In this document: piece after piece, positions 1,803 through 58,145 of the stretch
Position numbering within the stretch: the stretch's first letter is position 1
Layout of the letters: the number at the start of each line of letters is the position of its first letter
Assembly (NCBI GenBank): GCA_021773835.1
Contig: JAJFJQ010000057.1
Coordinates: forward strand, 248,001 to 312,000
Origin: Gammaproteobacteria bacterium
Lineage (GTDB): Bacteria > Pseudomonadota > Gammaproteobacteria > Ga0077536
Length of the DNA: 64,000 nt
Direction of reading: 5' to 3'
Program-made: the position numbers and the translations under genes
The notes under the pieces: model-generated
Database searches by the model: none
Seen by the model: the letters and a program-made list of their open reading frames with translations, nothing else
What the model was told of the DNA's origin: nothing

Positions 1803-4280
1803 ATGAGTAATATCGTCTCCGCAATTTACGACCGCACGGTACTCCGATTTCCGCACATCACGCTCATCGTCCTCGCAGCAATACTCGCGTTTTTCGCGTT
1901 ATCGGCGCCGAGTTTCAAACTAGATGCGTCATCGGACGCGTTGCTACTCGAGAATGACAAGGACCTGCGTAACTTTCGCGACCTAGCCCAGCGTTATGGG
2001 ATCCGAGAGTTTCTTTTCGTCACCTTGACACCGGATAAAGGCTTATTCGATCCGGCGACTATTAACCTCGTCGGGCAGATCCGCGACGACCTCAAACAGC
2101 TCGATTCCGTCCACTCGGTCATCTCGATGCTTGACGTGCCGCTGGTAAAAAATGTCGATGGCACCTTGGCCGACGTGTCGAAGAATTTTCGGCTACTTGG
2201 CGGCGACGACGTTGACTTGGAGCGCGCTCGTATCGAGCTGACGACGAGCCCGGTATATCGAAATTTGGTGGTAAACCCTCAAGGGACGCTAACCGCGATT
2301 CAGATTTTCTTGAAGAACAACGAGGAGTTTCTCCAAGCCCAACGTCGCCGCAATGACCTCATCAGCAAACGCGGCGCGGAGGGTTTGAACTCGACCGAAC
2401 AGTCCGAGCTCGAGCAGATCTTAGTCGGTTATGCGCAATTAAAAGACGTGGCCGATAATGCAAACCATCGCGCCGTGGCGGAGATCCGAGAGGTCATGGC
2501 CAGATATGCCGGCAATGGCACATTGTACCTTGGCGGCGTTCCGATGATCGTCGACGACATGGTCACCTTTATAGGTCATGACCTGCTTACCTTTGGCGGT
2601 GGTGTCGCGATTTTCCTAATTGTAATGTTGTCAATCATCTTTCGCGAAGCTCGCTGGGTCGTATTGCCGCTGGCGAGCTGTATCTATGCCGGCACCATTA
2701 TGGTCGGCCTGCTCGGGCTTGTCGGATGGAATGTAACGATCATTTCCTCAAACTTTATTTCATTGATGCTTATCATCACGATGTCGATGAATATCCATCT
2801 TATCGTGCGCTACCGAGAACTCTTTCGCGATCTACCTATTGAGACCAGCCAATATGACTTAGTGCGCGAAACTGCACATCATATGGTGCGCCCATGCTTG
2901 TATACCGCGCTGACGACAATCATCGCGTTTACTTCATTGGTAGTCAGTGGGATAAAGCCCGTAATCGACTTCGGCTGGATGATGACCATCGGGTTGGCCG
3001 TTGTATTCATGACTTCGTTCACGCTATTCCCTGCATCCCTTCTTCTACTCAAGAAAAAGCCGCTCAAACGTCCGGAAGGCGAACACTATGTCTTTACCGA
3101 GGTGCTGAGCAACTTCACGGAAAAATACGGGACCTTAGTCGTCATCATATCGATTGTCGCAGCACTACTTGGACTCGTAGGTGTTCAAAAACTGGAAGTT
3201 GAAAATAGCTTTATCAACTACTTCCACGAAGATACCGAGATCTATCAAGGTCTTAAGCAGATTGATGAAATGCTCGGCGGCACGACGCCGCTCGATGTCG
3301 TATTGAAATTTAAGGATGAAATAGAAACTCCCCAAAGTGAAGAACAGGATCCCGGCTTCGATGATCTAGCGGAATTATTCGGCGAGATCGAATCTGCTGA
3401 CGACGATATCTGGTTTACCCCGACAAAAATAAACCGGATTAAAAAAGTCCATGATTATCTCGATAACCTGGAGGCAGTTGGGAAGGTCCTCTCACTCGCA
3501 ACGGTCGTGCGCGTAGCGGAAGATTTGAACAAAGGTCAGGAGTTTGATGCTTTTCAGCTAAATGTTATCTACAAACGGATGCCATATGCCTTGCGCGCCG
3601 CAATGATCGATCCCTACGTATCAGTACCCGATAACGAAGCGCGCGTTTCGGTCAGGATCTATGATTCCCTGCCGGATTTACGTCGTAAGGCGCTGCTTGA
3701 GAAAATTGATAAGGAACTGCATGAAAATATTGGCCTCGAGCGCGACGAATACCAACTTGCGGGACTGCTAGTCCTATACAACAACATGCTCCAAAGCCTA
3801 TTCAAATCGCAGATTCAAACCCTTGGCGTCGTGATGTTGGGCATATTTTTGATGCTGTGGATCTTGTTCCGCTCGTTCACGGTTGCGCTGATTGGTGTGA
3901 TCCCGAACTTACTTGCAGCAAGCTCAATCTTAGGCGTAATGGGTTGGCTCGGTATTCCTCTCGATATGATGACGATCACCATTGCGGCGATTACCGTCGG
4001 TATCGCTGTCGACGACTGCATCCACTATCTCTACCGATTCCGAGAGGAATATCCTTTGAGACAAGACTACGTCGCAACGATGCATTATTGTCACGCAAAC
4101 ATCGCCAAAGCGGCGTTTTATACAACAGTAACAATTACCGTCGGCTTTTCGATATTGGTTTTATCAAATTTTATACCGACTATCTTGTTTGGTGCCCTAA
4201 CCGCCGTTGCGATGATTATGGCGCTACTCGCGGCGTTGACCTTGATGGCAAAACTCGTCCTTGCCTGGCGCCCATATTAG
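1803..4280 (+). CDS. MMPL/RND-superfamily exporter (COG1033-like)
   Basis: An 825-residue inner-membrane transporter with the two-fold architecture of the RND superfamily. One N-terminal membrane helix (residues about 15-35) leads into a large periplasmic loop, then a five-helix bundle (about 255-415). A second copy follows: helix about 440-460, loop, five helices from about 670 to the end. The fourth-helix region of the second half carries GIAVDDCIHYLYRFREEY, typical of COG1033 predicted exporters. The second periplasmic loop has an unusually acidic stretch near residues 500-540. Members of this family export lipids or hydrophobic compounds; HpnN, the hopanoid transporter, is one branch. Squalene-hopene cyclase lies 20 kb away, but nothing here proves a hopanoid role. 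The start is ATG with only a weak Shine-Dalgarno sequence. Confidence 0.85.
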   Translation: MSNIVSAIYDRTVLRFPHITLIVLAAILAFFALSAPSFKLDASSDALLLENDKDLRNFRDLAQRYGIREFLFVTLTPDKGLFDPATINLVGQIRDDLKQLDSVHSVISMLDVPLVKNVDGTLADVSKNFRLLGGDDVDLERARIELTTSPVYRNLVVNPQGTLTAIQIFLKNNEEFLQAQRRRNDLISKRGAEGLNSTEQSELEQILVGYAQLKDVADNANHRAVAEIREVMARYAGNGTLYLGGVPMIVDDMVTFIGHDLLTFGGGVAIFLIVMLSIIFREARWVVLPLASCIYAGTIMVGLLGLVGWNVTIISSNFISLMLIITMSMNIHLIVRYRELFRDLPIETSQYDLVRETAHHMVRPCLYTALTTIIAFTSLVVSGIKPVIDFGWMMTIGLAVVFMTSFTLFPASLLLLKKKPLKRPEGEHYVFTEVLSNFTEKYGTLVVIISIVAALLGLVGVQKLEVENSFINYFHEDTEIYQGLKQIDEMLGGTTPLDVVLKFKDEIETPQSEEQDPGFDDLAELFGEIESADDDIWFTPTKINRIKKVHDYLDNLEAVGKVLSLATVVRVAEDLNKGQEFDAFQLNVIYKRMPYALRAAMIDPYVSVPDNEARVSVRIYDSLPDLRRKALLEKIDKELHENIGLERDEYQLAGLLVLYNNMLQSLFKSQIQTLGVVMLGIFLMLWILFRSFTVALIGVIPNLLAASSILGVMGWLGIPLDMMTITIAAITVGIAVDDCIHYLYRFREEYPLRQDYVATMHYCHANIAKAAFYTTVTITVGFSILVLSNFIPTILFGALTAVAMIMALLAALTLMAKLVLAWRPY

Positions 4281-4322
4281 GCCAAAGTTTCAGATCGCCT
4301 CGACCGGTTATGCCATGGGTAA

Positions 4323-4574
4323 CTATCCCCCTTTAAGGGGTGGACAGTAGACGACCTCATCGCCGTCAGATAATTCGCGGAGGTGCCACGACGGCTGCAC
4401 GACATGATCGCCGTTAATCATGACGAAGTATTCCGAGTCTGCTGGTAACCCGACGGTTTCCGCCAATGTAGCTACTGTCGCGCCTGCATCGACCGAAAAA
4501 TCAGTACCGTTAAAGCTAGTGCCGCTCGGGATATCGTCAAGCAAATGGCCGATCAGCTTGACGGATATCTGCAT
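4323..4574 (-). CDS. MoaD/ThiS-family sulfur carrier protein
   Basis: An 83-residue beta-grasp protein ending in the diagnostic Gly-Gly (PPLKGG). In MoaD/ThiS proteins this tail is adenylated and then converted to a thiocarboxylate. The gene starts 13 bases after the end of the aldehyde ferredoxin oxidoreductase gene and is probably co-transcribed with it. MoaD-like proteins often sit beside this oxidoreductase, where they are thought to supply sulfur for the tungstopterin dithiolene. A role in this specific cofactor is inference from position. A G-rich stretch precedes the ATG. The gene ends 42 bases from the convergent MMPL gene. Confidence 0.85.
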   Translation of the reverse strand: MQISVKLIGHLLDDIPSGTSFNGTDFSVDAGATVATLAETVGLPADSEYFVMINGDHVVQPSWHLRELSDGDEVVYCPPLKGG

Positions 4575-4587
4575 CCAGCCCCCCGCA

Positions 4588-6414
4588 TTAAGCGAGCCCT
4601 AATCTGCTCAACGTAGTCGCCTCGGGTACGCCGCTCTCGTTCCATCCACGCAGTTTGTAATATTCCGGGAGCATTACATCGAGCCGACAAACGAGGCCTT
4701 CAGCGGCGCCCGATGGGGCTGGTTCTTCGAGGATCCGCTTAGGCAAAGTATCATCGGCGTGCCCCAGCCCGGCGGCTAAATTGAATTGTTTCTCCATGTT
4801 CCAGATCCGCTCCCCGGTGAGGACGAACCGGTCGACATCCCAGACGCCACCACACGCCGCCTGCACTTGGTCTGCATAATGTTCCAACTCAAGACCCGTA
4901 TTTTTTGCAAACATACACAAACCAGTGGAATCGACCGCAGCGAGAAAGTCTTGCGATTCTTTAACCACCTCTGCTTTCTCATCCGGCTCCGTCGAACCAA
5001 AGTCATGCCCATAAGGCGAGGCGCGTAAATGGCACGCACCGCGGTTACTTGTCGCATAGGCTAAGCCCATACCTTGCATTGCACGACCGTCGTAGGCGGC
5101 GAACTCTTGGCCCTTTACTGCCATCGACAACTCCGGGTGACCATATTTTTCGCACAAACGTTTTGAACCCATACCGATGTCTTTACCAAAACCCTCGCCC
5201 TTCCCGATCATTTCCGTTATCTGACACAGCGCTTCAGCAGATCCGAATTCAAGCTTGACGCCACCGGTCGTTTTCTCGTCAATCGCGCCGATATCATAAA
5301 GTTCCATCGCGGCGGCAACGGACCCACCTAGTGAGATCGGATCCATACCGTAGTCGTTGCAAAGGAATCCGGCATACGTAGCCGCGTCAATATCGTCAAC
5401 GCCAACGGCGGCGCCAAGCGCATAGGCCGTTTCGTACTCTAACCCGCCAGAGGCCGTTTGATACCGTGGTTGATCTTTGACTGAGAAATGTTGCGGGTCG
5501 ATATGACTGACTCGACCACAACCAATTGTACAAGCGAAGCATGCACTGGTTGTGATTAGGTTGGTGTGTCCATTTTCATTTGGGTTTTGCATTGCCGCGG
5601 CACCCATCTTCTCGGCACCGGCAAACTGAACCGCACGGTTGTTATGCGTCGGTAGAGAACCAAACGTATTGGTGATGTCCATCATAGACAGCGTGCCGTG
5701 ACGGCTCAACCCTTTCCGAGGTTTGCTTGCCGCCAAGACGTCTTTGGCGGTTTGTACTGCGGCCATAAAGGCCTTGTCATCGTGAACACGAACACCCTTG
5801 GTGCCGCGCACCGCAATCGCCTTCAGGTTTTTTGATCCCATCACCGCACCGACGCCTGAACGTCCTGCAGCACGATGGAGGTCATTGACGACGCAGGCAT
5901 AACGATTACCATATTCACCAGCCGGTCCAATCGAGGCGATCCGGATCAACGGATCCTTATGCGCGGCCTTGATTGACGCCTCAACATCCCATATTCGCTC
6001 ACCCCATAGATGCGTTGCGGGAATTAAAGTGGCGGTGTCGTTTTCAACGAACAGATAGACCGGCTCTGGTGAGCGCCCCTCGAAAATAATCAGGTCAAGA
6101 CCGCTGTTCTTCAATTCTCCACCGAATTGCCCACCGGAGTTTGAACACGCGATTGCGCCGGTGAGCGGCCCTTTTGTAATCACCGACCAACGCCCGCCGG
6201 TTGAGGCAGCAGTACCGGTCAATGGTCCAGTCGCAATAATGAGTTTATTTTCAGCAGCAAGCGCGTCGACCGACGGGTCCACCTCTTCGACGAAGTACTT
6301 AGTGCCCAGGCCGCGCTGGCCGAGATAGCCCTCTGCCCACTCCATGTTCAGCGGCTCGTGCGTGCAGGTACCTGCGCTAAGGTTTACGCGGAGAATTGTA
6401 CGTTGCCATCCCAT
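4588..6414 (-). CDS. Aldehyde ferredoxin oxidoreductase (tungsten-type)
   Basis: About 608 residues, the normal length for the AOR family, which oxidises aldehydes to carboxylic acids with a bis-pyranopterin tungsten centre and one [4Fe-4S] cluster. The N-terminal domain opens with GWQRTILRVNLSAG. Cluster ligands are visible as CFACTIGC near residues 290-297, with a late cysteine in STGLCMFAKN. I place the start at 6414 because AGGAG lies 8 bases upstream; an in-frame ATG at 6456 would add 14 residues but lacks such a site. It sits third in a tight operon: aminotransferase, hydrolase, AOR, MoaD. The transaminase could supply the aldehyde. Electron acceptor and substrate cannot be read from the sequence. 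Confidence 0.9.
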   Translation of the reverse strand: MGWQRTILRVNLSAGTCTHEPLNMEWAEGYLGQRGLGTKYFVEEVDPSVDALAAENKLIIATGPLTGTAASTGGRWSVITKGPLTGAIACSNSGGQFGGELKNSGLDLIIFEGRSPEPVYLFVENDTATLIPATHLWGERIWDVEASIKAAHKDPLIRIASIGPAGEYGNRYACVVNDLHRAAGRSGVGAVMGSKNLKAIAVRGTKGVRVHDDKAFMAAVQTAKDVLAASKPRKGLSRHGTLSMMDITNTFGSLPTHNNRAVQFAGAEKMGAAAMQNPNENGHTNLITTSACFACTIGCGRVSHIDPQHFSVKDQPRYQTASGGLEYETAYALGAAVGVDDIDAATYAGFLCNDYGMDPISLGGSVAAAMELYDIGAIDEKTTGGVKLEFGSAEALCQITEMIGKGEGFGKDIGMGSKRLCEKYGHPELSMAVKGQEFAAYDGRAMQGMGLAYATSNRGACHLRASPYGHDFGSTEPDEKAEVVKESQDFLAAVDSTGLCMFAKNTGLELEHYADQVQAACGGVWDVDRFVLTGERIWNMEKQFNLAAGLGHADDTLPKRILEEPAPSGAAEGLVCRLDVMLPEYYKLRGWNESGVPEATTLSRLGLA

Positions 6415-6477
6415 CCGATCTGCTCCTGTCGATTGATCTTTGTCTGCTGGCGCCATTGCGTCGGCGCTGGCCCAAGT

Positions 6478-7293
6478 TTAGCGTCTTTCGGTTCCTCGTG
6501 CAGAGGCGTTTTGACGATAGAATTCCGCGATTGCCGCAACCGTCTCATCACTACGTTCGAGATGCGGCGCGTGGCCGCAGGCATCCAGCTCCACCGTTTC
6601 TATGTCAACTCGAACGGCGTGGGCTATTTGTCGAAGCTGGAGCTGCGTTCCATATTCGTCGTTGAGGCCTTGGATCTGAAGCAATGGCACATCAATACCG
6701 GCGAGATCTGCAACAATTGTCCACTGCATAAAGTCTGGATCAAGCCAGGCACCGCTCCATCCGTCAAAGGCGCAATCAACATTACGACCGTGATATTTAT
6801 ACAGGCGCCGCCGTAGATCGCCTCGGCGAAATGTCTTCTCGATTGACTTAATCGCGTCGATGCCGCACGGCTCCGCAAAGACGTGCGGCGCCATGACGAC
6901 CACCGAACGCAGGCCGGGGTCGTTTAGAAGTCCGGCATAGACCAATGCAATTGAGGCGCCATCACTATGGCCTATCAACATATGCTGATTGATGTTGGCG
7001 CGTGCCAACACCTGCGGAAGAACCTCGACGGCCTCGATTGTCATATAGTCCAACGGGCGCGGTAACACTATTGGCTCAGACGAGCCATAGCCTGCTCGCG
7101 AATAGGTGAACACCGTACAGCCGGTCGCGCGCGCGAGCAGATCGGGGAAATTCCGCCACAGGGCCACGCAACCTAGCCCCTCATGCAGCAACACGAGGGC
7201 CGGCTTCGCCGCGTCACCCGGAATTAATCGGTACTCAAGCGCAACGTCGTCTACCACCATCCGCGGGTAGGCATCCCCGGCGGCACTGCCCAT
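6478..7293 (-). CDS. Alpha/beta hydrolase
   Basis: A 271-residue single-domain alpha/beta hydrolase. The oxyanion segment LVLLHEGLG comes near residue 33, the nucleophile elbow GHSDG near residue 108 (Ser nucleophile), a probable acid in GLNDEYG, and the catalytic histidine in ACGHAPHLE close to the C-terminus. There is no signal peptide, so it should be cytoplasmic. The gene begins 20 bases after the aminotransferase and ends 63 bases before the AOR start, which makes it part of that operon. The substrate is unknown; an ester, lactone or thioester made by its operon partners is possible. An internal ATG at codon 12 is an alternative start. Confidence 0.85.
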   Translation of the reverse strand: MGSAAGDAYPRMVVDDVALEYRLIPGDAAKPALVLLHEGLGCVALWRNFPDLLARATGCTVFTYSRAGYGSSEPIVLPRPLDYMTIEAVEVLPQVLARANINQHMLIGHSDGASIALVYAGLLNDPGLRSVVVMAPHVFAEPCGIDAIKSIEKTFRRGDLRRRLYKYHGRNVDCAFDGWSGAWLDPDFMQWTIVADLAGIDVPLLQIQGLNDEYGTQLQLRQIAHAVRVDIETVELDACGHAPHLERSDETVAAIAEFYRQNASARGTERR

Positions 7294-7313
7294 TGGTTAG
7301 AGCTCGATCAGGC

Positions 7314-8705
7314 TCAGGTGTTCAACAAGCCCTCGCGCGTGACCCAGTCCAAGGTCTCGTCTAAGGATCTACCAAAGATATCGAAAATTTCTCCAACTTC
7401 GTCGTCGCTAACAATTAACGGCGGACAAAATGCCATGATGTCCCCTAAGGCACGAATGATTAGACCATTCTCCTGACACCGCTTAAGGCAATACGCACCG
7501 ACTTTCGCGGCTGGATCGAACGCAGCTTTGGTTGATTTGCTCGCGACCAATTCGCACGCGCCGATCATCCCAACACCGCGAACATTCCCAACCAGGGGAT
7601 GCTCGGCAAACGTTTGTAGGCATTGCTGGAAACGAGGGCTCAGTGCCGCAGCTTTCTCAAAAATTTTGTCGCGCTCATAGATCTCTAACGCCTTGACTCC
7701 GACCGCCGCCGCAACGGGATGCCCACTGAAAGTATAGCCGTGGGCAAAGTTCCCGACGTCTTCACTAGCAGCAACGATTGCGGTATATATTTTTTCCGGA
7801 ATCACGACCGCACTGAGCGGTTGATAGGCAGATGTTATGGCCTTGGCGAGACTCATCGTGTCCGGTTTGATATTAAACGTTTGCGACCCGAATGGATTAC
7901 CCGTGCGGCCGAGCCCGGTTATCACCTCGTCGACAATAAACATGACATCGTATTTGCTCAGCACCGCTTGAATCTTTTCGAAGTACCCAGCCGGCGGTAC
8001 CAACACACCACCAGCACCCATCACCGGTTCCGCGATAAACGCCGCAATAGTGTCTGGGTCTTCGGCTAAGATCATTTTTTCCAGATTGTCTGCAAGCCGA
8101 GTCGAAAACTCCTCCTCGGATTCTCCTGGCTCGGCAAATCGATAGTAATAAGGTACGTCGGTGTGGAGGAAGCGATCGTTGAGTGGCGCATCAAAGTGGG
8201 CGTGCATCTGCGGTAGACCGGTGAGGCTTGTCGCGGCGAGGGATATCCCGTGATAGGCCTTGATCCGGCTGATGATCTTCTTCTTACGGGGCCGCCCAAT
8301 AGCGTTATTGTAGTACCACATCAGTTTTATCTGTGTGTCGTTCGCATCCGATCCCGAACAACCGAAAAAGACCTTGGACGCCTCCATCGGCACCATTGCC
8401 TTGATCTTCTCCGCCAGCATAATGCCAGGCTCATGGCTCTTGCCCTGGAACAGATGCGAATATGACAATTTCTTCATCTGCTCAAAGGCAGTTTGTGCCA
8501 ACTCTTCGTTTCCGTAGCCCAGCGAAGTGCACCATAACCCAGCGAGCCCTTCGATAAATTTCTTGCCACGGTCATCCCATACATGAATACCCTCGGCCCG
8601 CTCGATGATGTCGGGGCCTTGGTCATGCACGAGGGTAAGATTGGTGTAGGGGTGGAGAAGGCTATCTACGTCGCGGGCGGCGGCACTACCTGGCATTACA
8701 CTCAT
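7314..8705 (-). CDS. Class-III PLP aminotransferase (omega-amino acid/polyamine:pyruvate type)
   Basis: A 463-residue fold-type I aminotransferase. WDDRGKKFIEGLAGLWC and YSHLFQGKSHEP near the N-terminus, GCSGSDAND, FIVDEVITGLGRTG (PLP-stacking and Asp contact) and SLAKAITSAYQPLSAVVIP (PLP-binding Lys) are all present. The closest recognisable group is the omega-amino acid, putrescine or taurine:pyruvate transaminases. These convert a terminal amine to an aldehyde with pyruvate as acceptor. It is the first gene of the operon with the hydrolase, AOR and MoaD genes, so its aldehyde product is a plausible AOR substrate (inference). The ATG has a strong AGGAG 8 bases upstream. Confidence 0.9.
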   Translation of the reverse strand: MSVMPGSAAARDVDSLLHPYTNLTLVHDQGPDIIERAEGIHVWDDRGKKFIEGLAGLWCTSLGYGNEELAQTAFEQMKKLSYSHLFQGKSHEPGIMLAEKIKAMVPMEASKVFFGCSGSDANDTQIKLMWYYNNAIGRPRKKKIISRIKAYHGISLAATSLTGLPQMHAHFDAPLNDRFLHTDVPYYYRFAEPGESEEEFSTRLADNLEKMILAEDPDTIAAFIAEPVMGAGGVLVPPAGYFEKIQAVLSKYDVMFIVDEVITGLGRTGNPFGSQTFNIKPDTMSLAKAITSAYQPLSAVVIPEKIYTAIVAASEDVGNFAHGYTFSGHPVAAAVGVKALEIYERDKIFEKAAALSPRFQQCLQTFAEHPLVGNVRGVGMIGACELVASKSTKAAFDPAAKVGAYCLKRCQENGLIIRALGDIMAFCPPLIVSDDEVGEIFDIFGRSLDETLDWVTREGLLNT

Positions 8706-8781
8706 GTTGTTGCTCCTAGATTCCTACCGCTACCGGTAGTTACCTCAATTATCGTCGGCATATTCGGCGATGCCGACGACG

Positions 8782-10032
8782 CTAATCTACGTTTGTCTGA
8801 ATACGATGCTGCGAGAGTTTTTGCCGGGCTTCGCGCAGCGCCGCCGGATCAGTTTGCTCCTCGAGCATCCCAAGCCGGTACTCCGCCTTCGGCAACCCAC
8901 CTTCGGCGGCTAAGCTCATCCAGTAGTATGCGCCCGCCGGATCCTTCGGTACACCTTTGCCGCGTGCCAAACAAACGGCCAAGCCATATTGCGCCCGCAA
9001 ATGACCCTGCCGCGCTGCTCTTTCGTACCATTGGATGCCATCCCCAGCCGCGTATTCGGGATCTTCGAACAACACACAACGCCTAGCCAATTCATACTGC
9101 GCCTCAACGTATCCCAGCTCGGCGGCTCGACGCAGCCAAGACATCGCAATCTTCTTATTCGCCGTTACGCGGTCGCCGCTATCGAAGGCCATTGCCATGC
9201 GATAACTCGCCTTGGGATAGCCTTGGTCAGCGGCCTTGCGCAACCACTTCATCGACTCGCCGGGTTCCAACTCTGGTATGAGTTGCCGTTCAAAAAACCG
9301 ACTCAGGGCATATTGCGCTGGGGCGAGTCCCGAGTTTGCCGCCTTTTCCATCCAACGTTTAGCTAAATCCAAATCCTGATAGCTCGGCGGGGAGTTGGCA
9401 TAGATCAATCCTAGATTGTATTGCGCCTTTGCGTATCCAGATTTGGCTGCGCGTTGACACCAATGGATACCCTGTTCAAAGTCACGCATACCGGTGTCAC
9501 CATTGATATAGGCAAGCGCAAGACTCATCTGCGCGCGCGGGTGACCTTGCTGGGCCGCCTCCTCCCAATGGCGAAGTGCTGCATTGAAATCGGCAACGAC
9601 GTCGGTACCGCGCGCGTAGATATCGCCGAGACTATATTTCGCCATGGCGTTTCCGTTTGCGGACGCCGCGTAATACCAAGTTAGTGCGCGGTCCATGTCG
9701 CGCTCGCAACCGGTCCCGGTTTGATAACACCAACCTAAGCGCGCCTGGGCTTCGGCAAGATTTTGCTCTGCGGCCGCGATATACCAGATCAGCGCCACTT
9801 CCTGATCAGCAACGACACCGGCACCAGCCGCATAGCATCTACCGAGGCGATACTGCGCCTCCGGATGGCCATCCGTTGCGGCGCGCTTGTACCAAATAAC
9901 TGCTTGGTCTAGGTCGATATCGAGTGCGGCACGCTTGCGAAAGCGTTCGCCTAGGATGAACTGGGCGTCAGCGTCGCCGCTTTTTGCGTCCGCTAGGAGC
10001 TTATCGACATCGATATCCTGGTGATCGGACAT
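8782..10032 (-). CDS. Sel1-repeat protein
   Basis: A 416-residue protein built almost entirely of Sel1-like (TPR-related) repeats of about 36 residues. I count ten or eleven units with the pattern AQYxLGxxYxxGxGVxxDxxxAxxWYxxAA. There is no signal peptide or membrane segment, so it is probably cytoplasmic. Sel1 proteins act as binding scaffolds; the partner cannot be told from sequence. Middle repeats are the most regular, and the last one (AEYRLGMLEEQ) is shortened. No strong Shine-Dalgarno precedes the ATG. Confidence 0.88.
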   Translation of the reverse strand: MSDHQDIDVDKLLADAKSGDADAQFILGERFRKRAALDIDLDQAVIWYKRAATDGHPEAQYRLGRCYAAGAGVVADQEVALIWYIAAAEQNLAEAQARLGWCYQTGTGCERDMDRALTWYYAASANGNAMAKYSLGDIYARGTDVVADFNAALRHWEEAAQQGHPRAQMSLALAYINGDTGMRDFEQGIHWCQRAAKSGYAKAQYNLGLIYANSPPSYQDLDLAKRWMEKAANSGLAPAQYALSRFFERQLIPELEPGESMKWLRKAADQGYPKASYRMAMAFDSGDRVTANKKIAMSWLRRAAELGYVEAQYELARRCVLFEDPEYAAGDGIQWYERAARQGHLRAQYGLAVCLARGKGVPKDPAGAYYWMSLAAEGGLPKAEYRLGMLEEQTDPAALREARQKLSQHRIQTNVD

Positions 10033-10217
10033 AAGCTTATTTAGCGCCGAGGCGGCAGTTCATTGCAATCACTTCGAACGGTAATATTCACGCTCGAAGG
10101 CAATGTTCTGGCACGGGGGGTCCGCTGCCGACGCACCGGTTGACCCGCGCTGCCGGCATTCTAAGAGGCAAGCGTTCGCAATATTGCTCACGGACAACGC
10201 GCCCCGGTCGGGCAGAA

Positions 10218-51089: not shown

Positions 51090-54000
51090 CTATAACTCCT
51101 CCTCGGTTTTCCGCTCTGCTCGGGTTTCCATCCACTCATAAATCACGGGCAACAGCACCAGGGTCAAGAGCGTTGAGGTGATAAGACCACCAACCACGAC
51201 AGAGGCCAGTGGACGTTGAGTTTCTGCGCCAACACCAGACGACAACAACATCGGCAACAGGCCGAGGATCGCAACACTCGCCGTCATCAAAACAGGGCGA
51301 AGCCTAAGCTCTGCTCCTTGCCGCACGGCTTCCGACACACTGAGACCTTTCTCACGCAGCTGATTGATGAAGCTTACGAGCACGATGCCATTGAGCATCG
51401 CCACACCAAACACGGCAATGAACCCGATCGCAGAAGGAACGGAAACGTATTGCCCACTGATATACAACGCGATCAATCCACCGATCGTCGCGAACGGCAC
51501 ATTAGCAATGATGAGCGTCGCGTATTTGATCGAGTTAAACGCGGTGTAGAGCAACACGAAGATAAAAAATATCGTCAACGGTACGATCACTGATAAACGT
51601 GCCAAGGCGCGTTGTTGGTTTTCGAATGCACCGCCCCATTCGATCCAATAACCTGGTGGAAGATCGATTTGAGATTCAATCGCTGCGTTCGCATCTTTAA
51701 CAAATCCATCGACATCCCTCCCACGCACATCCATTTGAATAACGGCGTAGCGCTGTAACTGCTCACGTCGTACAAAGGAATAGCCTTCCGCAACGCTCAC
51801 CGTAGCGACTGTGGAAAGCGGAACGATTGCGCCGCTGCTGGTTTTTAGCGGAATACGTTCAATCGCCTGTACTGAAGCCTTTGAGGCGTCATTCAAGCGC
51901 GCGGTGATGTCGAAGCGGCGCACCCCGTCGATCATCGTCGACACCGGTTCGTTGCCGATGCCGGTGCGTACAACTGATAAGACATCGTCGGCATTCAGTC
52001 CGAAACGTGCCAGTTGGTCTCGTTTGACCTGAATTCGGATCTGGGGTTTACCGACATTAGCCTCAAGCGATAGATCGGCTACCCCATCGACAGCAGCGAT
52101 AACGTTTTTTACTTCTTCACTCAGGCGATCGAGCTCTGCCAATTCCTCACCGTAGATCTTCGCAGCGAGCGTCGCACGAACGCCAGAGATCAGCTCCTCT
52201 ACTCGCATCTGGATCGGCTGGGTGAAGGCGACAACAGCCGTCGGCACCACGACTTCCAGTTCTTCACGCATCGCTTCTGCGAGTTGCTCGATATCACGCT
52301 CTTCCGTCCATTCACTCTCTGGTTTGAGCTCGGTATAGATCTCCATATAGTTCACGTCAGCCGTCTCACCTTTTTCCGCCCGGCCAATCATTGCGACTGT
52401 TGTTACGACTTCGGGAAATTTGGACAATGCATTCTCGATGTCCTTCGAGATCGTGATTGATTGCTCTAGAGAGGCCGATGGGATCGACGTCACCCGCCAC
52501 ATGATCGAACCTTCCTGCAGCTGCGGCATAAACTCTTTACCGAGGAGCGGAAATAACGCGAGACTCGCGACGAGCAGGGCCAAGGCTAAGCCAACGACCG
52601 TCTTTTTGTGACCGACCGACCATGCAAGCAAGGGTAGATAGAAAAATTTTATCCCCCGTACCAACCAAGTATCACGCTCTTTTTTGGGCTTCAAGATCAG
52701 CGCGGCGAGTACTGGGATCAAGGTCAGCGTCAACCCTAGCGATCCCGCCATGGCGAAACTGATATTGAACGCCATGGGCTTAAATAGTTTGCCCTCGAGG
52801 CCTTCCAGCGCGAAGAGCGGTAGGAACACAACGATGATGATGAGGATCGCAAAAGCGATTGGATTCGCGACTTCTTTTGCAGCGACAAGCACCGCGTTCG
52901 TACGATCCACCGGATTACCGGACTCTAGACGTTCGGCCATGATGCGAAAGGCGTTTTCAACCATGACAACGGCGCCGTCGACCATCATTCCGATGCCGAC
53001 AGCCAAACCCGCCAATGACATGAGATTCGCCGACAGTCCTGCTTCAAGCATAAAAATGAACGCAATCAGCATCGCTAATGGCAACGCAGTGATAACGACA
53101 ATCGCAGAGCGTAGCTCGCCGAGAAACAAGAACAACACAATGGCAACCAGGATCGAACCTTCCACTAACGCACGTACCGCCGTGCCGACTGCTTTGTCGA
53201 CCAGATCGGTTCGGTCATATACCGGTCGCAGCGTAACCCCGTCCGGTAATGACTGATCGAGAATGACGATCTTCTCTTTTACCGCATTGACGACGGCGGC
53301 GGCGTTTTCACCCAAGCGTGAGAGCGCCATGCCGAGCACAACTTCTTTGCCGTCACGCGTTACCGCGCCGAATCGCAGAGCACCCGCTTGGACGACATCA
53401 GCAATGTCGCGTAGATACACCGGTGTACCATCCTCGACTTTGATGACCATGGCACCAATATCTTGTTCGTTCTCGACCAAGCCCAGACCCCGCACGAGGT
53501 ATTGTTCAGCACCGAGATCAATGTACTGTCCGCCGACCTGACGATTATTGGCTTCAATTACCTGCATAACATCAGTAAAGGTTAGGTCGTACTTGATCAA
53601 ATTTAAGGGATCAATCACCACCTGGAATTGCCGTTTCTGGCCGCCCCATGATGTGACATCATCTACTCCTTGAGCTGTGCGTAGAATTAGCCGAACGCTC
53701 CAGTCATGCAGGGTGCGCAAATCCATGTCGGTTATTGCTGCGTTCAGTTCTTCATCCGCGCGCTCTAGCGTGTACCAGAACACCTGACCGAGTCCCGAAG
53801 TATTGGGGCCCATCTCCGGCGTGCCGTAGCCTTCTGGGATCCGATCACCTACTTCCTGCAACCGTTCCATCACAAGCTGCCGCGCAAAATAGATGTCCAT
53901 GTCATCTTCAAAATAAACGGCGACGTATGACAATCCGAACAAACTGACTGAGCGGATTTCTTGAACTTTTGGAAGCCCTGCCATACTTGATTCAACCGGA

Positions 54001-54200
54001 AACGTCAGAAGCTGTTCGACGTCCTCGGCGGCGAGTCCGGGTGACTCGGTGTAAATATTCACTTGCGCCGGCGTCACATCTGGAAACGCATCAATCGGCA
54101 CGGTAACCACAGCACGCCAGCCTAAAGCGGCGATAACGCCGAAAATAATCAGCACCAGGAATTTGTAACGCAGTGATGCTTCAACAAGTTTTTCTAACAT
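51090..54200 (-). CDS. czcA: Heavy-metal efflux RND pump, CzcA type
   Basis: A 1036-residue inner-membrane proton antiporter with 12 membrane helices and two large periplasmic domains. The fourth-helix signature is GIGMMVDGAVVMVEN, with the proton-relay Asp and Glu. At the three positions that form the copper methionine triad in CusA it has Arg (IMWRVTS), Met and Glu (MRVEEL), so a divalent cation such as Zn, Co, Cd or Ni is more likely than Cu or Ag. ATG 54200 is preceded by AAGGAAC; the frame is open to 54290. It follows the adaptor gene by 10 bases. Confidence 0.92.
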   Translation of the reverse strand: MLEKLVEASLRYKFLVLIIFGVIAALGWRAVVTVPIDAFPDVTPAQVNIYTESPGLAAEDVEQLLTFPVESSMAGLPKVQEIRSVSLFGLSYVAVYFEDDMDIYFARQLVMERLQEVGDRIPEGYGTPEMGPNTSGLGQVFWYTLERADEELNAAITDMDLRTLHDWSVRLILRTAQGVDDVTSWGGQKRQFQVVIDPLNLIKYDLTFTDVMQVIEANNRQVGGQYIDLGAEQYLVRGLGLVENEQDIGAMVIKVEDGTPVYLRDIADVVQAGALRFGAVTRDGKEVVLGMALSRLGENAAAVVNAVKEKIVILDQSLPDGVTLRPVYDRTDLVDKAVGTAVRALVEGSILVAIVLFLFLGELRSAIVVITALPLAMLIAFIFMLEAGLSANLMSLAGLAVGIGMMVDGAVVMVENAFRIMAERLESGNPVDRTNAVLVAAKEVANPIAFAILIIIVVFLPLFALEGLEGKLFKPMAFNISFAMAGSLGLTLTLIPVLAALILKPKKERDTWLVRGIKFFYLPLLAWSVGHKKTVVGLALALLVASLALFPLLGKEFMPQLQEGSIMWRVTSIPSASLEQSITISKDIENALSKFPEVVTTVAMIGRAEKGETADVNYMEIYTELKPESEWTEERDIEQLAEAMREELEVVVPTAVVAFTQPIQMRVEELISGVRATLAAKIYGEELAELDRLSEEVKNVIAAVDGVADLSLEANVGKPQIRIQVKRDQLARFGLNADDVLSVVRTGIGNEPVSTMIDGVRRFDITARLNDASKASVQAIERIPLKTSSGAIVPLSTVATVSVAEGYSFVRREQLQRYAVIQMDVRGRDVDGFVKDANAAIESQIDLPPGYWIEWGGAFENQQRALARLSVIVPLTIFFIFVLLYTAFNSIKYATLIIANVPFATIGGLIALYISGQYVSVPSAIGFIAVFGVAMLNGIVLVSFINQLREKGLSVSEAVRQGAELRLRPVLMTASVAILGLLPMLLSSGVGAETQRPLASVVVGGLITSTLLTLVLLPVIYEWMETRAERKTEEEL

Positions 54201-54210
54201 GTGAGTTCCT

Positions 54211-55383
54211 TTAGTGCGCGTGGCCTTCGCCAAGCGAAGATTTGAGCAGCAGTGATTTGAGATGAAAGACGCCGGCAACTGCGATCTCATCGCCTTCGGT
54301 CAGGCCCGCACGCACCACCACCCAATCGCCGACCGTCGCGCCGGACTCTATTGTTACCGGGTGAAACTCATGCCCGTCTTCGCGCTTGAACACGGTCGCT
54401 TGTCCCTCAATCATGGTGACCGCCGCGCTCGGTACTGCCAGCACCGGGTCGCTGGTGCCACTCACTATTTCCACTTCAACAAACTGCCCCGGATGCAACC
54501 GATCGTCTGCGTTGCTCACTTCAATTCGCAAACCTTGTGTTCTTGTCGTTTCGTCTAATCGATGATGGCGTTGAATGACCGTACCTTCTAACCACGTGAT
54601 GCCATCGAGACTGACTGTTGCGGTGGTACCATCATCGATCGGCGGTAAGCCGTTCGGGATAGTTTGTGCCTCTACCCACATGATCGATTCATCGCTGATG
54701 TCGATGAGCACCCTACCCGGTTCGATCAATTCGCCCATGATGAAGTCGTCCTGCAAGACGGTACCCGCTTGCGGCGCGGTCAAGTCGAACGCACCGGTTG
54801 CTTTGCTCGCATCACCCGTTTTTATCAGCGCCTTTGCTTGAACTTGAGTCATGCCGTACGCGAGGACTTTGGCAAGAGCCTGTTGCTGCGCGACTTGCGC
54901 CTCCGTGTAGCGGCGTTCAGAGACGGTTGCTCGACCGAGCGACTTAACTCGTTGCCATTCTTGGTTCGCTACGACCAACGCACCTTGTGCTTCCGCCATC
55001 GCCACACTCGAAAGTGTTACCAGTCGTTGACCAACTGTGACGGTGTCCCCGAGACGAACATGGCGCTCTGCCACTTGCGCCGTGATCCGCGGTGTGACAC
55101 GAGTCGATCGGTACGCATTGATCACCACCTCTCCTGGAACGCGCATGGTTTCGTTCAGACCCCGTGGCGCGATGGCGGTAACGACAATGCCCGCCGCACG
55201 CTGTTGGTCAATGGTCAACTCAATTGCGCGCCCCTCTTCTTCGTGATCATCGTGTCCTTCCTCCTCGGCACCAACTGGCGTGAAAATCGCCAAACTCAAA
55301 CACACGACCAAAATCTTTAGCGTGTTCATCAGCGTAGTCATCCGGTCTATCTCCATTCGTGTTCTGTACAGTTCGAATTTCAT
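54211..55383 (-). CDS. czcB: RND periplasmic adaptor, CzcB type
   Basis: About 390 residues. A signal sequence (TLKILVVCLSLAIFTPVGA) is followed by an acidic, His-containing segment EEEGHDDHEEEGR that could bind metal. The adaptor core then follows: lipoyl-like GEVVINAYRSTRVTPRITAQ, an alpha-hairpin and beta-barrel domain. The C-terminus HLKSLLLKSSLGEGHAH is again His-containing. ATG 55383 overlaps the czcC stop (ATGA) and has TAGGAG at 8 bases; ATG 55341, with GGAG at 9 bases, is an alternative with a more usual signal peptide. A longer open frame to 55608 is not supported. Confidence 0.9.
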   Translation of the reverse strand: MKFELYRTRMEIDRMTTLMNTLKILVVCLSLAIFTPVGAEEEGHDDHEEEGRAIELTIDQQRAAGIVVTAIAPRGLNETMRVPGEVVINAYRSTRVTPRITAQVAERHVRLGDTVTVGQRLVTLSSVAMAEAQGALVVANQEWQRVKSLGRATVSERRYTEAQVAQQQALAKVLAYGMTQVQAKALIKTGDASKATGAFDLTAPQAGTVLQDDFIMGELIEPGRVLIDISDESIMWVEAQTIPNGLPPIDDGTTATVSLDGITWLEGTVIQRHHRLDETTRTQGLRIEVSNADDRLHPGQFVEVEIVSGTSDPVLAVPSAAVTMIEGQATVFKREDGHEFHPVTIESGATVGDWVVVRAGLTEGDEIAVAGVFHLKSLLLKSSLGEGHAH

Positions 55384-56642
55384 CGGGTCGCTCCTAGGCC
55401 GAGCCAGGCGTCTACCTGACCCGATGCCCAGAGCCATTCGAACCATGCGCGCCATAGCACCTGTTGTAGATCGAGCGCGCTTTCCTGAACATCGAGTGTT
55501 TGGCGTAATTGCACGAGGTATTCCGTCGTACTGAGCTCGCCCGCTTGCCATAGTTTGCGGAGCTGATCGCTTTGCCCCTCGAGGCTCTTCTGACCGGTTA
55601 GCTCCCAATCGCCCCAGGCACCGCGCGCTAATTCATATCGTTCTGCCGCGCTTACAAGTCGCGCATGCGCTCGCTGTAAAACGTTATCGGAGGCGTTTTC
55701 AAGTTGACTGCGCTCCGCGATCGCAGCGTTTACTTCGTTGTTGAATCGATTCCGGACAAATAGCGGGATCGTGACGTTTAACCCAATCAGCAAGTCACCA
55801 CCCTCTTTACCGCCCTCCATATTTACCGTTGGATCGGGCCGCTGTTCGCGCCGACGAAGGTTGACGGTGGCGTCGGCGACGTCGACTTGGCGTCTCGCCG
55901 CGAGTACTTCCGGCAATGCCAATGCCAACGACTGTGGCCTTGCTGCGCTGTCTGGAAGCGTAGGCATTTGCGTCGGAAGTAACGGCCACTCACTGGGAGT
56001 TGAGTGAGGCGATAGACTTCGAATCGCTTGCCGCGCTTCCGCGAGCGCCGCCGCCGCTGTCGCTTTTTGGATGCGAGCATCTGTATATGCTAACGATGCT
56101 AAGTAGACTTCGACTTGATTCAAATCACCGGCATCGAAGCGTCGTTTCGCGACGGTCGCGAACTCATTCATGAGTCGTTGACGCGCTTCGGCCAACTCGT
56201 CACGTGCTAATCCGGTCTGGTGTTGTGAGAGCCCTTCCAGTAACTCTACGGCGACAGCCCAACGGGCAGCGAGGTACTTCGCTTCAACGACCAGACGATT
56301 CGATTCGGCAATCGCTGTGCGAGCCGAACGTTTATCATTCCAGTCCAAGCTTTGACTGATCCCCAAGGTGTACGTATTGACCTCGGCGTTTTCCGCGCCA
56401 GCCGAAACATTAGGGTTATAGAGAGGTCGCGAAGCAGCGTTCCGCCGTGCATCACTCGCTTCAAGTCCGGCACTCGCCGCCCGTACGCGCGGGTTGGCAT
56501 CAACCACCGTTTGAACAAAGCGAACTAACGCATCATCGGCGCGGGCTGCCCCTAACGGACTGTCGGCAACAGCCAACGTCGGCCACGATACGAAAACGAA
56601 ACCGCCCAAAAATAGAACGAACCGATACATTGGTATTTTCAT
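55380..56642 (-). CDS. czcC: Outer-membrane efflux protein, CzcC type (TolC family)
   Basis: A 420-residue TolC-family protein with signal peptide (MYRFVLFLGGFVFVSWPTLA, cut after AVA). Long helical segments in two repeats (VQTVVDANPRVRAASAGLEA and, later, NEVNAAIAERSQLENASDN) form the periplasmic tunnel; the beta strands, for example NVSAGAENAEVNTYTLGISQ and LLIGLNVTIPLFVRN, give the outer-membrane barrel. With CzcA and CzcB it would export cations across both membranes. The stop overlaps the czcB start. Confidence 0.92.
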   Translation of the reverse strand: MKIPMYRFVLFLGGFVFVSWPTLAVADSPLGAARADDALVRFVQTVVDANPRVRAASAGLEASDARRNAASRPLYNPNVSAGAENAEVNTYTLGISQSLDWNDKRSARTAIAESNRLVVEAKYLAARWAVAVELLEGLSQHQTGLARDELAEARQRLMNEFATVAKRRFDAGDLNQVEVYLASLAYTDARIQKATAAAALAEARQAIRSLSPHSTPSEWPLLPTQMPTLPDSAARPQSLALALPEVLAARRQVDVADATVNLRRREQRPDPTVNMEGGKEGGDLLIGLNVTIPLFVRNRFNNEVNAAIAERSQLENASDNVLQRAHARLVSAAERYELARGAWGDWELTGQKSLEGQSDQLRKLWQAGELSTTEYLVQLRQTLDVQESALDLQQVLWRAWFEWLWASGQVDAWLGLGATR

Positions 56643-56721
56643 AAATCATTTTCCGGATGCAAAACATCGGCGCGCACACCGAACGCTGCTCGGTAGGCAC
56701 GAACTCAAAGAGGAAAATGAT

Positions 56722-57051
56722 TTACGTAGTGGGAGGTGGTGTCGGAGGGGCTTGCGCTAAATTACGGATACCACGAACACGACCATTTATAGGATCACGA
56801 GCGTTTGTCGGCGGTATTGTGGGCGCAAATTGATCGATGATATTGGCGCAATGACCATGGCAACAATGCTCGCAATGATCAGTATTAAGGTCGGTATTGG
56901 CGGGCGCATCCACCGATGAGGTTTTTAACTTGTCGATCTGATGTGTCGGGTCGTCGCTATGTGGATGTCCCTCAATCACAGTGTCAGCGGCGGCGTCCAG
57001 GCTCATAAAGAGCACAGAAAGCATCACAAAATAGTATAAGAATTGCCGCAT
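56722..57051 (-). CDS. CzcI-like periplasmic His/Cys-rich protein
   Basis: A 109-residue exported protein with signal peptide (FLYYFVMLSVLFMSLDAAA). The mature part carries EGHPHSDDPTHQ and the dense metal-binding stretch HCEHCCHGHC, then a Pro/Thr-rich tail ending PPTPPPTT. It sits directly upstream of czcC, where CzcI-type proteins are found in czc operons and thought to modulate induction. The sequence is short, so the family call rests on position and composition. Its ATG is 8 bases from the CDF stop. Confidence 0.72.
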   Translation of the reverse strand: MRQFLYYFVMLSVLFMSLDAAADTVIEGHPHSDDPTHQIDKLKTSSVDAPANTDLNTDHCEHCCHGHCANIIDQFAPTIPPTNARDPINGRVRGIRNLAQAPPTPPPTT

Positions 57052-57058
57052 TGCTTTA

Positions 57059-57724
57059 TTAGGATAGCCGAATTTCTGTTGAAGTGGGGTTATTAAATTG
57101 ACGTTCGGCGCGTAATTCTGCTTTTGCTAATCGAATGACGACTATAGCGGCAGCTAAGTTAAGCGCCGCGATGATTGTGGCAACCAGCAAGTCTGGCCAG
57201 CGAGACGCACTAACAAAAACGCCGGCGGCTGCCACCATAACTGCCACGTTGCCAATCGCATCGTTACGACTACACAGCCAGATTGATCGCATGTTGCTGT
57301 CACCGCCTCGATACCGATATAGCAGTACTGCAACCGCTACGTTAACAATCAAGGCAAGCAGTGCGATGGTGCCCATCGTTGTGGCATCAGGCGCGCTACC
57401 CGAAACTGCGCGATATGCTGCACTACCGATGACCCACAATCCGAAGATCGCCATCGTCGCGCCCTTAACAACGGAAGCGCGAGCTCGAGCCGTTAACACC
57501 ATGCCAACGACCGCGAGACTGATACCGTAGTTCGCGGCGTCTCCAAAAAAATCTAAAGCATCGGCCTGTAGCGAGATGGAATCACTAACTTGGCTAGCGA
57601 CAACTTCGATTAAAAACATCGAAAAATTCGCGATTAAGGCTATCCACAAGACCCTACGGAACACCGGGTCAACAGACTCGTCACCGGTAACGTCCGATGG
57701 GCACTCAGTACAACCCGGCATCAA
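57059..57724 (-). CDS. Cation diffusion facilitator family transporter
   Basis: A 221-residue protein with six membrane helices. The helix-2 site is DxxxD (ADALDFFGDAAN), and the helix-5 site reads CSRNDAIGN, so Cys stands where zinc CDF proteins have His (CxxxD instead of HxxxD). The usual C-terminal cytoplasmic domain is missing, giving a short form. Cys-bearing N-terminal residues (PGCTECPSD) may bind metal. Export of Zn or a related cation from the cytoplasm is likely. The start overlaps the ArsR stop (ATGA), with GAGGAA upstream. Confidence 0.82.
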   Translation of the reverse strand: MMPGCTECPSDVTGDESVDPVFRRVLWIALIANFSMFLIEVVASQVSDSISLQADALDFFGDAANYGISLAVVGMVLTARARASVVKGATMAIFGLWVIGSAAYRAVSGSAPDATTMGTIALLALIVNVAVAVLLYRYRGGDSNMRSIWLCSRNDAIGNVAVMVAAAGVFVSASRWPDLLVATIIAALNLAAAIVVIRLAKAELRAERQFNNPTSTEIRLS

Positions 57725-58059
57725 TCCATTTCCTCGATGTCGAGCGGTTCGCCCACGTGCGCAACCATATCGTCAATCACACACCGAATGTGCTCGTCCA
57801 ATGCCGAGTAAAATATTTGCTTACCACGGCGCTCGGCGCGCAACACGCGCGCACCTCGCAACAATCGTAAGTGATGGCTGACAAGTGACGGAGAGAGTTC
57901 GAGTCGGATAGCGATGTCGCCCACGCTGATCGGATCATTTAAGCACGCTAGGATAATTCTCAAGCGCGAGGGATCGCCCATCAGACGAAATAGGTCGGCC
58001 AACTGCACGACCGCGTCCTCTGTTCCTATGGTGACCACCGCTTGGCGCTTGACCTTCAT
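57721..58059 (-). CDS. ArsR/SmtB-family metal-sensing repressor
   Basis: A 112-residue winged-helix repressor. DNA-recognition helix: LELSPSLVSHHLRLLRGARV. The last helix has D88, H90, H101 and E104 (DxH-x10-H-x2-E), the exact spacing of the alpha-5 zinc site in SmtB. There is no CxC arsenic or cadmium site, so Zn or Co sensing is predicted. It heads the operon of CDF, czcI-like, czcCBA, PII and lipoprotein genes. ATG 58059 is chosen because an operator-like palindrome lies just upstream; a frame to 58110 would run through it. Confidence 0.9.
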   Translation of the reverse strand: MKVKRQAVVTIGTEDAVVQLADLFRLMGDPSRLRIILACLNDPISVGDIAIRLELSPSLVSHHLRLLRGARVLRAERRGKQIFYSALDEHIRCVIDDMVAHVGEPLDIEEMD

Positions 58060-58069
58060 TACTCTTATA

Positions 58070-58087
58070 TATGAATATGTGTTCATA
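58070..58087. promoter_or_regulatory. Probable ArsR/SmtB operator
   Basis: TATGAA, six bases, TTCATA is a perfect inverted repeat in an AT-rich stretch 11-28 bases upstream of the repressor start. This fits the imperfect 12-2-12 type operators of SmtB-family repressors and their usual overlap with the promoter, implying autoregulation. Confidence 0.65.
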
Positions 58088-58145
58088 CATTTACATATTA
58101 ATTCGGACACGTCAATCTTGCGATCGAATCGATAAAGGTCTGTCT

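Follow-up and report, generated by a model that had tools for sequence, protein, structure and literature searches.

The AorABC aldehyde oxidoreductase (AOR) of Aromatoleum aromaticum, representing the 'bacterial' or Class III type, is under study both as an enzyme filament that conducts electrons and as a biocatalyst for acid reduction. From their operons, all bacterial-type AORs were judged to be three-subunit enzymes in the text available from Arndt et al. 2019 (PMC6365974); Class I WORs (PfAOR, BmWOR, CsWOR87) have the large subunit alone, sometimes with a ThiS-like WorX. Here we describe a four-gene cluster at 4323-8705 of a 64,000-nucleotide stretch (the window; bases 248001-312000, inside a 337 kb contig) of a gammaproteobacterial genome, encoding a transaminase, a hydrolase, a tungsten AOR and a MoaD-like sulfur carrier. 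The AOR is a derivative of AorABC with an altered pocket and no partner genes, and almost every genome with an AOR of this type has the full enzyme as well. The span and the open reading frames agree exactly with the cluster as originally predicted, and Pfam matches confirm the classes of its four products:

7314..8705, minus strand: class III (omega-) transaminase, 463 residues; Aminotran_3 281.8 bits; NCBIfam PRK06105 662.7 bits (cut-off 517); best PDB match 6g4b, 523.8 bits
6478..7293, minus strand: alpha/beta hydrolase, 271 residues; Abhydrolase_6 58.2 bits; GHSDG nucleophile elbow
4588..6456, minus strand: tungsten AOR of the short-loop partnerless clade, 622 residues as called; AFOR_N 252.6 and AFOR_C 420.9 bits; 8c0z 797 bits
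4323..4574, minus strand: ThiS/MoaD-like sulfur carrier ('WorX'), 83 residues; ThiS 28.4 bits (cut-off 22.5); ends PPLKGG, with C-terminal Gly-Gly

The nearest structure to the window AOR is 8c0z, the AorB subunit of Aromatoleum (AORAa; 60.5% identity, Foldseek template-modelling (TM) score 0.90). The two share the AFOR_N and AFOR_C domains, four iron-sulfur (FeS) cysteines, the tungstopterin ligands and a MoaD-like gene in the operon; the window AOR differs in having neither aorA nor aorC adjoining, in having lost Tyr468 and Phe514 of the substrate clamp, and in a seven-residue gap after position 474, which leaves a short loop. Our tree covers 72 AORs, three AORs of known structure serving as distant rows; fragments below 550 residues and copies from later searches, including the phylum-wide one, are not in it. 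In this tree 13 short-loop AORs without partner genes (solo AORs) fall together (support 96/87), and with five rows that have AorA only they form a clade supported at 100/100. This clade is nested among AorABC-type catalytic subunits, the deepest fork being weak (89/61). Three rows are labelled as AorABC-type with no partner seen: L242 and L082, which lie at contig ends, and L246, a true exception (G, C and L mark our genomes, contigs and loci; G000 is the window genome).

We then classified AorB-like copies from 76 genomes by their adjoining genes, leaving out AOR-family genes of ~30% identity; at most three candidates per genome were scored in the class and phylum searches, so that extra copies may be missed, and a few places are counted twice (G001, G022, G023, G025). 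Among long-loop loci, 72 carry both AorA and AorC (one G001 place twice), two are cut at contig ends and one has no partners; among short-loop loci, 16 have no partners (one G025 place twice) and five have AorA only. Six further copies are unclassifiable fragments. AorC adjoins none of 21 short-loop loci, and no AorA or AorC match was found within 20 kb around the window AOR (L006). The sole long-loop exception, L246 (G377:C5, ~8281-10143), combines an AorB-type AOR with a MoaD-like gene and has no AorA or AorC in 18 kb. The AorA-only short-loop AORs (L231, L237, L239, L243, L211), from five genomes in four families, are a possible intermediate AorAB enzyme.

AORs of the window type (69-77% identity) occur in 14 of the 36 genomes of the family, in each case without AorA or AorC adjoining. 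A search of the class recovered an AorB-like AOR at cut-off in 48 of 369 genomes, and a phylum-wide sample found AORs at E 1e-200 in 8 of 398, adding one short-loop copy without partners from another class (G488); G488 also carries a long-loop copy with partners. Plasmid records with an AOR at E 1e-60 number 31, all below 60% identity, so we see no sign of a recent plasmid origin. The dedicated sulfur carrier of the original prediction holds up: the window MoaD is closer in type to the carriers beside other solo AORs than to that of AorABC, and a gene of its type adjoins 14 solo short-loop AORs, comprising 12 of the 12 family genomes with downstream DNA, G298 and one G393 copy. It was not found beside the second G393 copy (L269) or in G488 (L285), and the contigs end in G022 and G031. 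Our literature searches, which took in the accessible parts of PMC13328260, PMC12096430, PMC10413684 and PMC6365974, found no previous account of AorB-type enzymes of the solo or short-loop kind; the 92-clade tree of Schut 2021 may hold the clade unnamed.

The substrate pocket has changed together with the partners. We aligned 50 long-loop and 18 short-loop rows (13 solo, five AorA-bearing) in AORAa numbering, in which Tyr468, Phe511 and Phe514 make up the benzoate clamp. Position 468 is Tyr in 50/50 long-loop rows and Asp, Asn or Ser in 18/18 short-loop rows; position 514 is Phe in 50/50 of the former and Gly, His or Asn in 18/18 of the latter. Every one of the 18 short-loop rows also has Trp334 and Pro441 changed and lacks the seven residues after 474, while Phe511, the only clamp residue kept, and the FeS cysteines persist. 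The window AOR has Ser480 for Tyr468, Asn519 for Phe514, Tyr345 for Trp334 and Ala453 for Pro441, with two cofactor-contact changes (Ile508 to Leu, Val510 to Met). It keeps the tungsten-cofactor contacts Arg75, Asn92, Gly94, Arg181, Ala182, Asp361 and Asp504, all four FeS cysteines, Glu331 and His464. The pocket is thus predicted to be polar: loss of most of the aromatic clamp points to polar, non-aromatic aldehydes such as omega-oxo acids, and substrates of that kind would fit with an omega-transaminase as neighbour.

In gene arrangement the window AOR resembles Class I WORs, being a single large-subunit gene, without small-subunit or flavin-subunit genes, next to a ThiS-like gene; it also shares with 1aor and 9g7j two glycines close to the FeS cluster. 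It differs from them in its nesting among AorABC catalytic subunits and in the clamp, since equivalents of Tyr468 and Phe514 are present in both structures. In the FOR of Pyrococcus furiosus the aromatic clamp is likewise not conserved, according to the available portion of PMC10413684, and glutaric semialdehyde, an omega-oxo acid, is the substrate proposed for FOR in the part of PMC12096430 at hand. The parallel may be instructive as an analogy of pocket and substrate, not of membership, FOR (1b25) being only a distant relative (248.8 bits).

How electrons would leave an AorB without its AorA is suggested by residues around the cluster. Gly301, beside an FeS cysteine, and Gly515 occur in 13/13 solo rows and likewise in 1aor and 9g7j, both single-subunit AORs; long-loop rows have Ala at 301 in 49/50 and at 515 in 48/50, as does 9mqx, titled an electron-bifurcating enzyme. 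The shared glycines favour a free-standing, ferredoxin-type enzyme. Co-occurrence makes sharing of AorA in trans a serious rival. The window genome holds a complete aorA-aorB-aorC-moaD set (L005, G000:C53, 6874-11163) on the same contig, 114 kb from the window AOR, and the one strong AorA match in the genome lies in that set. An AorABC-type copy is present in 7/7 genomes with a short-loop AOR outside the family (in G298, AorC is seen and the contig starts at AorB), in G488 and in 12/14 solo-AOR genomes of the family (the other two, G025 and G035, are less than 90% complete), against 48 of 369 genomes of the class with any such AOR. The solo AOR could then be an exchangeable head that docks on the AorA wire from the distant operon and passes electrons to nicotinamide adenine dinucleotide via the shared AorC, widening the substrate range, with the AorA-only operons as an intermediate state. 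The solo-specific changes around the FeS ligands (R281N, A301G, A515G), two of which match free-standing AORs, speak against docking, and a shared need for tungsten cofactor machinery would also explain the co-occurrence; we consider docking rather unlikely. A second AorA that might serve the solo AOR was sought in the genome and not found, the other two matches being weak (60.8 and 36.8 bits). Upstream of the L005 set lie a YVTN-type beta-propeller gene (by eye) and genes for a periplasmic binding protein and a TonB-dependent receptor.

The transaminase (TRANSAMINASE) belongs by its Aminotran_3 match and its PRK06105 match, the latter above cut-off, to the class III omega-transaminases, and its closest PDB entry is 6g4b, matched over ~450 residues. 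We take 6g4b to be PjAT, the omega-transaminase of Pseudomonas jessenii. PjAT acts on 6-aminohexanoate in caprolactam degradation, as stated in the accessible part of PMC6061476; the window transaminase, for which activity on omega-amino acids or diamines is predicted, differs from it in setting, with no lactamase or semialdehyde dehydrogenase among the neighbours scanned with Pfam.

From the gene order, the original prediction proposed a route from amine to aldehyde to acid. The proposed reactions fit the 6g4b-like transaminase and the loss of most of the AOR's aromatic clamp; a pathway dedicated to all four genes is not supported by their distribution. Among 58 genomes searched, G000 included, the hydrolase (cut-off E 1e-20) is present in 27, and a transaminase directly adjoins it in 24 of these, the exceptions being G015 and G049, where it adjoins boxC, and G018, at a contig end. 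The hydrolase, which had seemed to have no obvious place in the cluster, is thereby the conserved partner of the transaminase. An AOR stands directly behind the pair in 1/24, the window genome alone; it is absent there from 20, and the contigs of G014, G022 and G003 end within 1 kb, too short to judge. This rules out a conserved four-gene cassette, and the four-gene order proposed as a search target was not found in the other genomes with the pair.

The two units may once have shared a neighbourhood. In the six genomes with both on one contig (G000, G011, G029, G023, G035, G028) they lie on the same strand with the AOR downstream, 21 bp behind the hydrolase in G000 and ~3.8, 8, 8, 12 and 27 kb behind it in the other five; five further genomes hold them on different contigs, uninformative on distance. 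Genes flanking the cluster in the window recur around the units elsewhere:

8782..10032, minus strand: Sel1-repeat protein, Sel1 219.5 bits, 76 nucleotides upstream of the transaminase
1803..4280, plus strand: MMPL/RND transporter, MMPL 95.3 bits, facing the cluster and marking the far end of the old neighbourhood

MMPL genes accompany either the pair or AOR-MoaD in G001, in four g3 genomes, in G028 and G035 (both g4, with partial matches) and in G026 (g9). A Sel1-repeat protein is encoded close to the pair at 10 of the 27 hydrolase loci of relatives. The shared strand and order, together with MMPL near either unit in several genera, suggest an old shared neighbourhood, tightened in the window genome and from which the AOR was lost in others. 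We regard transaminase-hydrolase as the older pair and AOR-MoaD as a separate unit, the AOR being the variable element. In L097 (5160-8404), L098, L040 (16021-18987) and L056 (4524-7723), the stretch separating MMPL from AOR-MoaD carries SBP56 (selenium-binding/methanethiol oxidase family) and SCO1-MauG genes, which face AOR-MoaD convergently; this spot is without them in the window and at other solo AORs (Pfam on L097 only, the rest by eye). Their orientation and their absence elsewhere speak against a link with the solo AOR.

It is against this background that a single dedicated catabolic operon has to be judged, in which an omega-amine or omega-amino acid would be deaminated, its aldehyde oxidised by the AOR, and a lactone or ester opened by the hydrolase before or after. 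The spacing invites it: the gaps in cluster order are 20, 21 and 13 nucleotides on one strand, the second becoming 63 if the AOR begins at Met15 (MGWQ..., ~6414; 608 residues), the more likely start given a purine-rich GGAG stretch upstream (by eye) and the beginning of the 8c0z chain at that point. The transaminase's nearest relative, the polar AOR pocket and the constant orientation in all six single-contig genomes agree with it too. Against it stand the single contact among 24 pairs, G001 of the same genus, where MMPL comes immediately after the pair and no AOR intervenes, and the independence of the two units, hydrolase and solo AOR co-occurring no more than expected (11/15/3/7 among the 36 family genomes, p = 0.71) and solo AOR-MoaD occurring without a hydrolase match in G009, G026 and G032. 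We hold one purpose-built pathway to be improbable.

The hydrolase has a second possible context. Its Ser110 (in the GHSDG elbow), Asp212 and His241, invariant in 21 aligned sequences, form a presumed catalytic triad, and its AlphaFold2 model is confident (predicted local distance difference test score 94.1). The best Foldseek match is 9l75, titled PE hydrolase (TM 0.89), followed by valacyclovir hydrolase and an enol-lactonase. In a family search that covered at least 582 of 594 candidate stretches, a BoxC homologue is present in 39 of the best 80 hydrolase loci, in which identity to the window hydrolase is 44-57% and the HEGLG and GHSDGASIA stretches are conserved. From gene position the window protein appears to be of the same family as the lactonase (COG2267/COG596) placed in the BoxR regulon in the available text of PMC6449761, an alpha/beta hydrolase of the aerobic benzoyl-CoA (box) cluster described as acting on 3-hydroxyadipyl-CoA lactone; the two have the conserved Ser, Asp and His in common and differ in that the window hydrolase is paired with a transaminase outside its genome's box cluster. 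In the hydrolase tree (six loci duplicating genomes already present removed; L061, L062 and L063 lost as fragments), the transaminase-linked hydrolases group within the window genome's family.

The hydrolase may accordingly be serving the box pathway in trans, opening 3-hydroxyadipyl-CoA lactone or another ester side product, in which case its place beside the transaminase would say nothing of transaminase or AOR. The window genome has boxC at C63, with boxB and a boxR-like gene by eye; no hydrolase match was found in that region, and the window hydrolase is the only family member detected in the genome. Adjacency of hydrolase and boxC in G015 and G049 points the same way, and hydrolase and BoxC co-occur suggestively over all 36 family genomes (24/2/5/5, p = 0.01). 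The association is no longer significant when only genomes of 90% completeness or more are counted (18/1/3/1, p = 0.32). Within the family the hydrolase keeps its place beside the transaminase, and the structural matches do not fix a substrate; we rate service to the box pathway as quite possible, a little short of an even chance. AOR-family genes next to the hydrolase appeared among the best 80 loci only as distant ones, in L162 (5645-8771 and beyond) and L167 (5443-8765), delta-type bacteria where a hydrolase-family gene directly follows a long AOR-family gene (774 and 807 residues). These are an independent AOR-hydrolase contact; in L162 a gene for a tungstate-type binding protein and then, by eye, ABC and moeA-like genes lie downstream.

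The explanation we prefer is that two ancestral gene pairs have come to touch in the window genome, where a single message probably covers both. The AOR would descend from an AorABC-type catalytic subunit that lost its AorA polyferredoxin and AorC flavin partner genes along with most of the aromatic clamp, but retained its single [4Fe-4S] cluster, the tungstopterin site and a MoaD-like carrier of its own. Most likely it would function as a lone subunit in the manner of Class I, converting small polar aldehydes, omega-oxo acids for example, into acids, with a soluble ferredoxin receiving the electrons from its one cluster. The transaminase, acting on an omega-amino acid or an amine and paired with a box-type lactonase- or esterase-like hydrolase, could make such aldehydes, and its product could feed the AOR in the window genome.

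Several observations weigh against this explanation. The four-gene contact is seen once. Tyr482 of the window AOR, two residues from the lost Tyr468, might partly replace it. His484 near the tungsten, named as a possible catalytic residue in the portion of PMC10413684 available, belongs to the stretch of loop that is missing or altered, and the window AOR lacks a counterpart; in the AorABC-type AorB of the same genome this position is Leu. Confidence of the AlphaFold model is low in the pocket region, so we claim no pocket geometry. The loop and partner losses go back to a single origin, in one clade, and so are one event, not repeated support. Gly301 also occurs in two of the five AorA-bearing short-loop rows, so that the sign is not clean, and the near-constant presence of AorABC in the same genomes fits borrowing of AorA and AorC as well as standing alone. 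With these points counted, the combination of two touching pairs, a solo AOR for polar aldehydes and a ferredoxin acceptor is the joint explanation we favour, by a modest lean. A fuller history is more doubtful, and we offer it tentatively: an AOR subtype that left the AorABC nanowire, losing first the flavin subunit and then the polyferredoxin and trading an aromatic pocket for a polar one, to become a stand-alone tungsten oxidase of omega-oxo acids in bacteria with oxygen-respiration genes, wired here to an omega-transaminase. If true, the natural series AorABC, AorAB, solo AorB with its coupled pocket change would be a test of what the filament and the flavin subunit do, and would show which residues set the choice between aromatic and polar substrates.

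Sound domains, spacing and the position well inside a contig rule out chance or artefact as the origin of the cluster, whose GC (guanine-plus-cytosine) content resembles its surroundings. A scan of 4000-9000 gave 4 promoter-like sites against 3.6 expected by chance, none above chance, which leaves spacing as the ground for a probable common transcript; the Sel1-repeat gene is possibly part of it.

The window genome (6.14 Mb, 98% complete) also has the means to take up tungsten: TupB-C-A-like transporter genes lie at C47 (L227:5467-7771), and the TupA-like binding protein matches 5my5 at 249.4 bits and 3lr1, titled a tungstate-binding protein, at 239.8 bits. A complete absence of tungsten uptake, named beforehand as a finding that would undo the cluster reading, is thus ruled out, and the uptake genes are consistent with tungsten as the predicted metal of the AOR. 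The aerobic character ascribed to this genome holds as far as COX1 genes show (three matches, one partial). The genome has four AOR-family genes. The third (L007, G000:C21, 7384-14595) is accompanied by genes for an Fe-S small subunit and a MoaD-like protein and adjoins paaABCE-like genes (phenylacetyl-CoA epoxidase; by eye). The fourth (L008, G000:C41, 8709-12240; 573 residues) adjoins a gene for an enzyme of the thiamine pyrophosphate-dependent decarboxylase type, the layout expected for a route from 2-oxo acid through aldehyde to acid. At 51090-63963 of the window lies a metal-efflux region in which two RND systems of the CzcA/CusA type, with their adaptor and outer-membrane genes, are joined by a gene resembling those of cation diffusion facilitators (by eye).

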